From NCBI RefSeq assembly GCF_964204645.1, contig NC_134027.1, forward strand, positions 23,114,485 to 23,178,484: a stretch of 64,000 nucleotides of DNA, given 5' to 3'. Both the position numbers and the translations under genes were made by a program. The notes under the pieces are model-generated. The model worked only from the letters and a program-made list of their open reading frames with translations. It made no database searches and was not told the origin of the DNA. The stretch comes from Tubulanus polymorphus (taxonomy: Eukaryota > Nemertea > Palaeonemertea > Tubulaniformes > Tubulanidae). This document shows positions 1-51,042 of this stretch, in pieces; within the stretch, counting starts at the first letter, position 1, and each line of letters begins with the position of its first letter.

Positions 1-51
1 ATAATACATGATCTGCCGGTTTCTTCACCATTGTCAGCGATGTTGCTTGAA
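1..51 (-). CDS. Gene A exon: KPAD-type Ig domain, copy 2 (cut by window edge)
   Basis: Only the first 51 bases are in the window, after a ttctag acceptor. They encode QATSLTMVKKPADHVL, matching the start of the 979-677 exon. Confidence 0.65.
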
Positions 52-49200: not shown

Positions 49201-51042
49201 TAGAAAAACGACGCAGATCCTATAACGATAACAACGATAAACATCAGTTTTAAGATGGTTTTCTAAATTTTGATGATAAGTAACTTCTATCGTAATAACA
49301 AAATGGCTGATTGTTGCCAATTTGATGACGATCTAAAAGCAGAATGCTAATAATATTGGACACCGAAGTAACTGGTTTTACTATAGAAATTATAAGTTTG
49401 CTCATTTTCATATGGTTTTAAATTTTACGCCACTCCTGAGAAGATTCGAATCCCATTTATATCCTTAACCGATCGTTTGTTGATTACAAATGACTTTACA
49501 ACTGCTAGATTTTATACTAGGTATGTACATAATGCATCAAAATCACTATTTCATTTCAGAAAATCTGAAGAGTCAACACTAGGTAAAAATTGCCTTTGAA
49601 GTAGAAATAGAATTGCCTCGATTAAATAGATTGTATGCATGATTTACGAAAAATAGATATCTATCTATCTATCTAAGATTTTATTAGGCTTTTAATTAAA
49701 TATCATCTAAACGCGTAGGCTTTATGTATTTTTCAATGAATTGATAATGTTTTTTTCTGAATGAAATATTTGTTTATTGCAGCTTATTCTGACTGTAAAG
49801 AACTCCATGAAACAGACTCGCGTATGTATATCCGATAAATTTTATACACTACCAAATCCTCGTGGATTGAGTTAACGATTTAAGAAACATGATATTTCAG
49901 ACTCATACGCCTCGGCTACGCCGTACGTGAATGCGGTCTTTGGCGGTAAGTAATCTTGGTCTTCAGTAAAGGCCTTATAAAATTCTTTTAAAAATTTCCT
50001 GAACAAACACGAAAGAAATATGTTGAATTCCTCTTATTAGGGTATTCTGCTGTTTGACAGAAAACCCTATTGTAATTCTCGTGATTATTAAGATTTTCAG
50101 CTACTCTCGCAGAAAACGCTCTTGTACATCGGTTGATTATCATCATAATATTTTTTCGTACATAAAATTCATCTTCAATCAGATTCGACAACTCAATCTT
50201 TTAAACGAAATGTTAAGACAGAAATATTAGTCATATTGGTCTATCACACCGCCCGCAATTTCTTGGACGGACAGGTTCCCGCTTAGCGGCCACCAGTCGA
50301 TATATCTAGCCATATCTAGCCATTAGATACGTTGACGTACTGAAAGAGAGTGAATCAGCCGATGAAAAACAACACATCTGAATGGTTTAGTACATAATGC
50401 TGAGCGGCAACGTGTCCGCCCATGACATTTTTGGACGTGTAATAGACCAATGAAAGTTTATGTTAGCGTGAGCTCAGCGGACGGCAGCCAAATACTGGCA
50501 AGCGTGGATGTCCGCCAAAGAAACGTTTCTTCGTTATCATCAAAGTCGTATCATCCAAGTTCATCAGAACCTTTTAGGTAGTAGCCCTTATCCATCCACA
50601 TATCAAGTATTTGTGCTGACCCCCTATAGGTGGCGTTCCATAGAAAAATACGTACTAACTGAGGAGAGTTATTTGGACGAAATCCAAGCTTCCAGTACTA
50701 CATTGTAAGCCGCAAGGTAGAAACATGTTGTTGCAGCTTTATTTGATTTTATTTTTTAATGCCGATTTGATGTCTCTAACAAACACAATATTAGCTGCCG
50801 GTAACGAAATAGAAAATTTGACTTCAATATCGGAAATCATAGCACAGATATAGATGGATCTAAATTTAAGCGACCTATGATTCGAATATTCTTTTCCAAA
50901 TTTTGGCGGCTGGCTTGTAATTTTTCGGGCAAGTTCTGGCTTTTTTTATCTGCATGCATTTTCACGTAATTTGTTTTTAGTTTCGTCATTAAAAGCCGAG
51001 TCTGAAATTGACGCGAACCATTATGAAGAAGTCAAAAACTAG
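43041..51042 (+). CDS. Gene E: shortened and damaged Ig/FN3 receptor
   Basis: Intact exons: 43041-43052, 43235-43283, 43595-43651, 46337-46612, 47102-47374, 47746-48051, 48466-48750, 48968-49091, 49560-49582, 49783-49821, 49901-49945, 50996-51042. Together 1,536 bases in one frame, about 511 residues: signal peptide, linker, DPP Ig, DAP Ig, FN3, FN3-like, helix, tail. The two APP exons (45030-45306, 45542-45825) are frame-broken, and the V and AAD exons are remnants. Because the exons are phase 1-1, skipping the broken ones leaves a readable receptor; alternatively E is dying. Tail keeps PYVNA and HYEEVKN. A candidate aataaa signal lies at 51182. Confidence 0.6.
43595..43651 (+). CDS. Gene E putative linker exon
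   Basis: 57 bases, phase 1-1, between ttttttag and gtaagt. Encodes RAPPICDQRENRFCPPNN, with two cysteines and prolines. Takes the place of the V-like Ig domain in the order. Confidence 0.5.
44263..44400 (+). pseudogene. Decayed V-like Ig exon in gene E, relic 1
   Basis: Matches the end of the C V exon: gtaactatcactgaagcccggta and gatggtcatgtgactttatgaactctttcg. Frame and donor are lost. Confidence 0.55.
45030..45306 (+). pseudogene. Gene E APP-type Ig exon with frameshift and stop
   Basis: 277 bases between ttattacag and gtgagt, one more than the standard 276. The extra base lies near 45062. The first Ig cysteine codon has become a stop (acatga for acatgt). The rest ([29 protein letters not shown]) is still well preserved, so the damage is recent. 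Confidence 0.7.
45372..45505 (+). pseudogene. Decayed V-like Ig exon in gene E, relic 2
   Basis: ggaactatcactgaactccgatacactt, gttatggtaaacgtatcactaa and atttggtcatacgaacccatgaac all align with V-exon sequence. It lies between the two APP exons, like the relic at 32600 in D, which shows the ancestral unit was V+APP and was duplicated. Confidence 0.55.
45542..45825 (+). pseudogene. Gene E second APP-type Ig exon, two-base frame error
   Basis: 284 bases between tttgcag and gtgagt; the equivalent in D is 282. Two extra bases near 45555 throw the frame and bring a TAA soon after. The remainder ([30 protein letters not shown]) is open. No alternative acceptor restores phase 1. Confidence 0.6.
46337..46612 (+). 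CDS. Gene E exon: DPP-type Ig domain
   Basis: 276 bases, phase 1-1. [28 protein letters not shown] and NQAEYRCAATG; donor gtgagt. Confidence 0.75.
46786..46900 (+). pseudogene. Decayed AAD-type Ig exon in gene E
   Basis: gttgattcgcactag, ggcaattcaag and gcaactggcggagagcctgat correspond in order to the AAD exon of C and D. The acceptor, the frame and the 3' half are gone. Confidence 0.5.
47102..47374 (+). CDS. Gene E exon: DAP-type Ig domain
   Basis: 273 bases, phase 1-1. APKLPGEFDPVAAEIGEP, ATTLNC and [11 protein letters not shown]. The donor is gtatta rather than gtaagt. Confidence 0.7.
47746..48051 (+). CDS. Gene E exon: fibronectin III domain
   Basis: 306 bases, phase 1-1. [21 protein letters not shown] and [18 protein letters not shown]. 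Confidence 0.8.
48466..48750 (+). CDS. Gene E exon: membrane-proximal FN3-like domain
   Basis: 285 bases, phase 1-1. [34 protein letters not shown] and YNYNLIVSEDGDVII. Confidence 0.7.
48968..49091 (+). CDS. Gene E exon: transmembrane helix
   Basis: 124 bases, the shortest of the set. VVDKWPSVPVIIACAVLGS then IAFLVVIFLIVLFRNGR. Confidence 0.8.
49560..51042 (+). CDS. Gene E cytoplasmic tail exons
   Basis: 49560-49582 (KSEESTLG), 49783-49821 (AYSDCKELHETDS), 49901-49945 (SYASATPYVNAVFGG) and 50996-51042 (AESEIDANHYEEVKN, stop TAG). The last intron, about 1 kb, is longer than in B to D. Confidence 0.75.

Follow-up and report, generated by a model that had tools for sequence, protein, structure and literature searches.

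A large complex of putative immune-type receptors with related outer immunoglobulin exons and at least two tyrosine-motif tails in the nemertean Tubulanus polymorphus

Introduction

The best described relatives in layout of the locus studied here are clustered receptor genes of invertebrates. The allorecognition complex (ARC) of Hydractinia has at least 41 reported Alr loci, many of them clustered and with likely pseudogenes among them (PMC11067881). Alr proteins combine V-set and I-set domains with immunoreceptor tyrosine-based activation and inhibition motifs (ITAM and ITIM), according to descriptions that include a review of the invertebrate immunoglobulin superfamily (IgSF) (PMC11067881, PMC12065747, PMC11999971). 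The IgSF receptors of the Botryllus fuhc locus (FcoR) are reported to carry ITIM and hemITAM motifs, and their birth-and-death organization has been likened to mammalian natural killer complexes; a recent review holds that unrelated receptors converge on common ITAM/ITIM signaling (PMC12065747). The polymorphic transmembrane cluster (PTC) regions of the snail Biomphalaria are described as encoding diverse single-pass receptors, some of the genes having FN3, Ig, or C-type lectin domains (PMC10875847). Here we analyze a group of immunoglobulin (Ig)/FN3 receptor genes in 64,000 nucleotides of Tubulanus polymorphus DNA (assembly GCF_964204645.1, contig C3 = NC_134027.1, positions 23114485-23178484), a stretch referred to below as the window.

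Vertebrate paired clusters (KIR/LILR, NITR, CEACAM) have related ectodomains on tails of opposite sense and undergo gene conversion among paralogues, and paired recognition receptors combine an exchanging outer pool, tyrosine-bearing ends, divergent pairing, and birth and death. To our knowledge, allorecognition and paired-receptor complexes have been worked out in only a few animals. The window genes are probably germline-encoded single-pass recognition receptors of the immune type, serving defense or allorecognition, in a large expanded complex. This interpretation is favored because an apparently exchanging outer pool, several tyrosine ends, divergent pairing, and birth and death occur together at the locus.

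The resemblance to Alr appears to be one of layout. The two systems have in common a V-set outer domain in a predicted single-pass IgSF protein (seen here by Pfam in genes C and B and by a helix exon) and tens of copies in one complex, broken copies included. Compared at that level, the nemertean locus differs in having one or more FN3 modules, divergent V exons combined with two or more tail classes, a phosphatase array related to it, and a bilaterian host. The likeness to Botryllus FcoR, Ig receptors with tyrosine-motif tails, is by description and not by sequence. Biomphalaria PTC1/PTC2 are likewise clusters of diverse single-pass receptors, but the available text describes no exon pool in common and no divergent paired tails there (PMC10875847). 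The vertebrate paired receptors resemble the locus in layout, with related ectodomains on differing tails; in contrast to them, the long-tail class here lies on one strand.

Results

Exon anatomy of the window genes

Self-blastn resolved five paralogous loci in the window, the number given by the original prediction, with A on the minus strand and B, C, D, and E on the plus strand. A and B lie head-to-head and are 82-90% alike in long inverted blocks and 73-89% in shorter pieces. The Ig/FN3-like exons are ~270-350 bases long in phase 1-1, and each gene can be modeled as a row of phase-1 exons that would encode a V-set and other outer Ig domains, inner Ig, FN3, a helix, and a tyrosine-bearing tail. 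Most exons have good GT-AG borders; the two full APP exons of D have GC donors, and the DAP exon of E has a weak donor. Exon types are labeled by their first residues as outer (V, APP, DPP, KKP, PPE) or inner (DAA, DAP, FN3-1, FN3-2), followed by the transmembrane helix (TM) and the tail.

The exon order in A is V-APP-DPP-KKP-DPP-KKP-PPE-PPE-DAP-FN3-1-FN3-2, of which the exons beginning with the second KKP lie in the left flank; a KKP fragment stands between the two PPE exons. The order is V-APP-KKP-PPE-DAP-FN3-1-FN3-2 in B and V-APP-DPP-DAA-DAP-FN3-1-FN3-2 in C. Gene D has a partial APP followed by APP-APP-DPP-DPP-DAA-DAP-FN3-1-FN3-2 and no V, and gene E has an APP with one stop, a V remnant, and APP-DPP-DAP-FN3-1-FN3-2. 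A V-like Ig had been predicted in all five genes; it is intact in A, B, and C, missing from D, and reduced to fragments in E (45361-45499). Helix and tyrosine-bearing tail exons are present in B, C, D, and E as predicted, and the predicted end of the cluster, position 51042, is the stop codon of the last exon of E.

Pfam analysis of the hand-joined exons of C gave V-set (49.1 bits, best stretch in the V exon), Ig_3 (92.8 bits), fn3 (28.0 bits), and I-set matches. In a search of solved structures, the V exon matched only V domains in general, and weakly (best E 0.01). Two FN3-type domains had been predicted. FN3-1 is one by Pfam; the FN3-2 exon has no Pfam fn3 match, its best hit in a profile search of solved structures was not significant (E 0.26), and BLAST did not match it to the exon in the corresponding position of a related gene on contig C6. 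Its assignment as a true FN3 was dropped, and the exon is FN3-like by position only. The features are given below in window coordinates, with the evidence in parentheses.

Gene A
5037-5387, minus strand: V-set exon, intact (phase 1-1, AG/GT; Pfam V-set in homologues C and B)
2297-2572, minus strand: outer Ig exon APP (self-blastn, splice borders)
1107-1382, minus strand: outer Ig exon DPP, first copy (self-blastn, splice borders)
677-979, minus strand: outer Ig exon KKP (splice borders)
178-447, minus strand: outer Ig exon DPP, second copy (splice borders)
1-46, minus strand: KKP exon cut at the window edge
Left flank, last exon ending near window coordinate -9316, minus strand: PPE, PPE, DAP, FN3-1, FN3-2, class-2 helix, long tail
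5388-8995, no strand: stretch of ~3.6 kb between the divergent V exons of A and B (orientation, spacing)

Gene B
8996-9340, plus strand: V-set exon (Pfam V-set 26.4 bits, cut-off 26)
11289-11564, plus strand: outer Ig exon APP (self-blastn, splice borders)
12352-12654, plus strand: outer Ig exon KKP (splice borders; C2-set_2 and Ig_3 in KKP+PPE)
12771-13097, plus strand: outer Ig exon PPE (splice borders, Pfam in KKP+PPE)
13701-13973, plus strand: inner Ig exon DAP (splice borders)
14188-14493, plus strand: FN3-1 exon (splice borders)
15420-15701, plus strand: FN3-2 exon, FN3 by position only (splice borders)
16182-16341, plus strand: transmembrane exon, class 1
16985-17026, plus strand: small tail exon, ambiguous acceptor (16985 or 16998)
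17109-17153, plus strand: tail exon T1, YAAATPYVNVAFS
17357-17404, plus strand: last tail exon T2, ESIDDPNPYEEVRN, stop; 5' border approximate

Gene C
23219-23569, plus strand: V-set exon (splice borders, Pfam)
24239-24514, plus strand: outer Ig exon APP (splice borders, Pfam)
25279-25557, plus strand: outer Ig exon DPP (splice borders, Pfam)
25756-26031, plus strand: Ig exon DAA (splice borders, Pfam)
26262-26534, plus strand: inner Ig exon DAP (splice borders, Pfam)
26901-27206, plus strand: FN3-1 exon (Pfam fn3 28.0 bits)
27565-27846, plus strand: FN3-2 exon (splice borders)
28074-28233, plus strand: transmembrane exon, class 1
28775-28819, plus strand: tail exon T1, PYAAATPYMNVAFG
29194-29241, plus strand: last tail exon T2, AELEMDPNCYEEIKN, stop; 5' border approximate

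Gene D
32402-33446, plus strand: APP exons, one partial and two full (32785-33060 and 33171-33446; GC donors); no V exon
34372-34647, plus strand: DPP exon 1 (splice borders)
34994-35269, plus strand: DPP exon 2 (splice borders)
35608-35883, plus strand: DAA exon (splice borders)
36239-36511, plus strand: DAP exon (splice borders, Pfam I-set 33.7 bits)
36883-37188, plus strand: FN3-1 exon (splice borders)
37633-37914, plus strand: FN3-2 exon (splice borders)
38191-38335, plus strand: transmembrane exon
39075-39119, plus strand: tail exon T1, F in place of the second tyrosine
39461-39508, plus strand: last tail exon T2, stop; 5' border approximate

Gene E
45060-45827, plus strand: APP exons 45060-45308 (one stop) and 45558-45827, V-exon remnant between them (45361-45499)
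46337-46612, plus strand: DPP exon (splice borders)
47102-47374, plus strand: DAP exon, weak donor (splice borders)
47746-48051, plus strand: FN3-1 exon (splice borders)
48466-48750, plus strand: FN3-2 exon (splice borders)
48968-49091, plus strand: transmembrane exon
49901-49945, plus strand: tail exon T1, SYASATPYVNAVFG
50997-51042, plus strand: last tail exon T2, AESEIDANHYEEVKN, stop; 5' border approximate

Extent of the complex

The genome (268 Mb in 77 contigs) was searched with single exons, and 200 kb of flank was examined around the window. The V exon gave 41 matches, 30 of them stop-free and with an alignment that spans 110 or more of the 116 positions. These near-complete V exons lie at C3:22.80-23.21 Mb (21), C3:24.89-24.93 Mb (6), C3:24.34 Mb (1), and on C9 (2); a 31st at C3 24.889 Mb is more diverged (50%, 106 positions). 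FN3-1 gave 32 matches, 24 near full length at ≥68% identity (one with a stop), and 20 of the 24 fall in C3:22.80-23.21 Mb. APP gave 42 matches. The predicted cluster, placed at window positions 1-51042, is thus only one end of a ~400-kb complex at C3:22.80-23.21 Mb. The right border lies near C3:23.212 Mb, and the following 66 kb gives only matches with E >0.7; a broken V fragment occurs beyond it, at C3:23.38 Mb.

Duplication and decay appear to continue in the complex, as had been predicted. A tandem copy of 26.2 kb, 99.4% identical, lies left of the window (window coordinates -54605 to -28383 and -31972 to -5747), and of the three right-flank genes, G12 and G13 contain exons that are cut short or have a broken frame, and G14 shows no match to FN3-2. 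The spacers 3' of C and D (window 29695-32038 and 39919-43584) contain pieces that are 66-83% alike, which may be a trace of a tandem duplication that took in the spacer. A perfect (AT)84 microsatellite (window 32226-32393) stands directly before gene D, roughly at the expected place of a V exon. The C3:24.89-24.93 Mb region contains, besides its six near-complete V exons, one diverged V, fragments, and six APP exons with no FN3-1 match; these may be receptors of the same exon pool with a different inner part.

Outer exons look exchanged between genes

Silent divergence (dS) and the ratio of replacement to silent divergence (dN/dS, omega) were computed for ten genes of the examined region, giving 45 pairs that are not independent. 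G6 (one of two near-identical copies) and G1, G4, and G13 (incomplete or decayed) were left out, exons with stops or below 85% length were dropped, and copies within one gene were averaged. Outer dS was 0.11-0.30 and inner dS (DAP, FN3-1, FN3-2) 0.06-0.94, with means of 0.36-0.69 for the three inner exons. Outer dS was below inner dS in 43 of the 45 pairs, outer omega exceeded inner omega in 44, and the pooled omega was 0.62 for outer versus 0.39 for inner exons. Flanking introns had an identity of 0.60-0.67 at 12-72 bases from the exon (random 0.57) and 0.60-0.75 at 72-300 bases (random 0.59), with KKP and PPE highest. Because outer dS is low and uniform while the introns are near random, the genes appear older than their outer exons. 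The outer exons look exchanged between genes in exon-confined pieces, and the cause is probably short-tract gene conversion where exon homology remains, acting together with duplication.

Exchange of longer pieces is seen directly in two mosaics. C and its relative G2 have their 3' halves in common (93.6% over 4.7 kb), with an inner dS of 0.06 but an outer dS of 0.13. G3 is 90% B-like from its upstream part to the V exon and 90-92% A-like, inverted, in its body, followed by a class-2 helix and then T1-like exons. If low outer dS were due to selection on silent sites, through splicing signals or codon use, the ending of likeness close to the exon borders would be accounted for. No comparable constraint is seen on the inner exons of these genes, however (see their means above), and the G3 and C/G2 mosaics show longer exchanged pieces; we consider such constraint quite unlikely as a substitute for exchange.

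The 30 V exons gave an omega of 0.60 over 435 pairs, 431 with dS above 0; omega was 0.99 for pairs with dS below 0.1 (n = 13), and dN exceeded dS in 26 pairs. The 23 stop-free FN3-1 exons gave 0.29 over 253 pairs, with dN above dS in one. Many of the most changed V sites fall in codons 40-57, 94-100, and 106-115.

Tail classes and divergent V pairs

Genes B-E have class-1 helix exons and short tails (YVNV...YEEV; F in D). Class-1 T1 is YAAATPYVNVAF or close to it, and T2 ends in NxYEEV/I followed by a stop in B, C, D, and E. The canonical ITAM is YxxL/I, 6-12 residues, YxxL/I. The class-1 tail as modeled reads YxxV, 12 residues, YxxV/I, a spacing that depends on provisional splice joins within the tail, and would make an ITAM-like pair. 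The helix of gene A is of another class (class 2), ALIGGVVVGVLLLALIVIVFVLLFVKRRREGQWIW, found too in G3, in G5, and by partial match in G6. The long tail of A has eight tyrosines in the exons found and two DPIYSNV motifs, and its last exon contains YQTV, YQDV, YNDD, YVNC, YLHV, and STYSEL. Class 2 would thereby combine YxN and YxxV motifs with one ITIM-like motif, STYSEL.

Related ectodomains therefore stand on different tails, class 2 in A versus class 1 in B-E, with outer exon types in common. Counting a phosphatase array on contig C12, three tail classes may occur on related outer exons, and otherwise at least two. The original prediction of a diverse outside and a fixed inside, with helix and tail conserved, fits in part. 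Outer dN/dS is the higher, and an omega of 0.24 in 8 copies indicates constraint on the T1 tail exon. The outer exons appear to be exchanged, however, there are at least two tail classes with A in another class than its neighbors, and the five class-1 helix exons have a lower mean protein identity (0.64) than V (0.76); APP, DPP, KKP, and FN3-1 are at 0.81 each.

A class-2 last-exon query gave 15 matches, grouped into 11 loci on C3 and C9, all on the minus strand. Seven divergent arrangements of V exons occur, six of them on C3 and one on C9. Their match starts are separated by 4.0-4.4 kb in five, by 3.3 kb in one with a partial partner, and by 11 kb in one. In all seven, the minus member has a class-2 tail match ~6-15 kb downstream of it, A being the one read through. 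Class-1 helix matches follow four of the seven plus members (B, 22851063, 23003232, and C9:218014). This recurrence of class-2 genes head-to-head with plus-strand genes in repeated units suggests joint control, and the A-B spacer (5388-8995) is a possible shared control region on the strength of its orientation and spacing and of the seven such arrangements. The receptor ends are mixed too, because plus-strand G3 pairs a class-2-like helix with T1-like exons.

Relatives elsewhere in the genome

A class-1 helix query gave 15 genome matches, six of them at C12:1.331-1.457 Mb. The 9.5 kb at C12:1323001-1332500 contain PPE-, DAA-, and DAP-like exons and a class-1 helix, and upstream of these lie ~25-residue repeats with TYVN/TYLN/VYAN and phosphatase exons, which we take to belong to the preceding gene. 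This repeat stretch has 356 residues and 16 tyrosines, every one of them in a YxN motif. A phosphatase-domain search found at least 11 sets on the plus strand of C12:1.325-1.468 Mb, between and after the helix matches, so that the six helix matches interleave with the sets on one strand. No phosphatase domain in C3:22.8-23.2 Mb was among the matches listed (150 of 238 candidates scored). The C12 array may be a sister array in which YxN repeats and tandem phosphatase domains are coupled to related Ig exons and the class-1 helix. It alone resembles the LAR/RPTPdelta receptor phosphatases in joining Ig exons, a helix, and phosphatase domains; unlike them, it has at least 11 tandem phosphatase sets, YxN repeats, and a helix related to the C3 receptors. 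YxN motifs bind Grb2-type SH2 domains, and their share of tyrosines is 16/16 in the C12 repeats and 3/8 in class 2 (p 0.02). On unplaced contig C57 (17001-25600), phosphatase exons lie near a V exon whose frame is broken and an APP exon that contains a stop.

A diverged relative (27-42% identity) on the minus strand of C6:2224001-2233900 has the exon order APP-DPP-PPE-PPE-DAA-DAP-FN3-1, then a helix-like stretch. Its best matches among solved structures are Robo 2 and contactin-2, with SYG-2 lower down, and because of these the complex may be an expansion of a gene of the Ig cell adhesion molecule (IgCAM) type; the C6 gene is a possible founder or sister. Robo, contactin, and nephrin/SYG-2 also have an Ig row followed by FN3 and are conserved low-copy genes. 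Unlike nephrin/SYG-2, the receptors here form a multi-copy complex, though with diverged relatives on C6.

At the right of the window, a row of plus-strand open frames (55474-61356) belongs to another gene or genes and appears lectin/LamG-like by eye; five frames tried from it gave no Pfam match below E 0.05. Other searches of the genome gave one troponin match, a titin-like array, and 77 matches to glutamate-receptor exons, with a kainate-type receptor; the distribution of these families fits a bilaterian. COX1 had no match (the control was positive in 8 of 14 genomes). Neither GH6, which would have been a sign of a tunicate, nor an annelid linker was matched, but the control genomes were silent for both, so these two negatives do not speak for absence.

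Discussion

The probable reading of the complex as immune-type recognition receptors implies a common pool of recognition surfaces fitted onto at least two signaling tails. The proteins would reach the cell surface, the tails would signal through SH2 proteins, and the function would be ligand discrimination. An ordinary single-copy IgCAM is ruled out by copy number. A transposon or artefact is ruled out by the exon-intron anatomy, the reading frames, and the class-specific tails kept in many copies.

The strongest competitor, plausible although we would not bet on it, is a set of innate receptors that, like those of the snail PTC clusters, sense only microbes or parasites and take no part in recognizing self or kin. 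Biomphalaria PTC1/PTC2 are reported to be polymorphic clusters of single-pass receptors, one PTC1 gene having FN3 (PMC10875847). Such receptors would be just as likely to show expansion, decay, exchange of outer exons, and tyrosine tails. Pathogen sensing does not need divergent pairing with two tails, but no feature of the locus separates it from allorecognition. Allorecognition proper, as in the Hydractinia ARC and Botryllus fuhc, would have the V domains tell conspecific alleles apart and opposing tails set fusion or rejection. The layout of clustered IgSF genes with a V-set outer domain, ITAM/ITIM-like tails, and broken copies is consistent with it, and similar features are reported for Alr and the Botryllus IgSF receptors (PMC11067881, PMC12065747); as a specific assignment we regard it as rather unlikely. 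Weighed against it are the troponin, titin-like, and glutamate-receptor exons, which indicate a bilaterian. An adhesion repertoire for neural or developmental wiring of the Dscam or Dpr/DIP kind is improbable. The anatomy is IgCAM-like, and the C6 relative, alike in exon order, best matches Robo 2 and contactin-2 chains, but the complex has rapid tandem turnover, broken copies, and an outer omega of 0.62, which are unusual for wiring genes, and SH2-type tail motifs. Gamete recognition or seminal proteins under sexual conflict, which duplication and relatively fast outer exons would fit, are very improbable, since such proteins do not usually have tyrosine-motif tails or divergent paired classes.

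Several observations weigh against the interpretation as exchanging, paired recognition receptors. Scans upstream of V exons (up to ten copies; eight V-bearing copies) gave no consistent signal-peptide exon, and the sole common candidate, in C and G2, was rejected for a stop in G2. Gene D lacks the second tyrosine of T1, and the small tail exon of E has lost one of two candidate acceptors. YxN is not enriched in class 1 (1/3, 1/3, and 0/2 of tyrosines). The right-flank minus genes G12 and G14 carry class-1 tail exons, and therefore strand alone does not set the class. The near-identical 26.2-kb copies could be a recent duplication or in part an assembly error. Outer and inner dS are correlated (Spearman 0.51), and therefore exchange is only partial. 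FN3-1, classed as inner, equals APP and DPP in mean protein identity. V omega is below 1 overall, and parsimony counting on a FastTree tree found 0 of 117 V sites significantly positive and 20 negative. The description of the receptors as fast-changing therefore rests on relative omega only, the outer exons exceeding the inner.

It is doubtful, though conceivable, that the locus is an undescribed bilaterian self/non-self complex of divergent pairs, with a common outer Ig pool continually copied onto opposing signaling ends: an ITAM-like short tail, a long tail of the YxN/ITIM-like kind, and a receptor phosphatase encoded on another chromosome. In a literature search that left subscription papers mostly outside its reach, no title or abstract described such a divergent Ig/FN3 complex. 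If this proposal is true, a given specificity could come in an activating, an inhibitory, and a phosphatase version. A complex of this kind in a bilaterian, with unlike receptor ends drawing on one exchanging outer pool, would be an independent test of ITAM/ITIM convergence, and the complex supplies concrete sequences for measuring polymorphism, expression, and binding.

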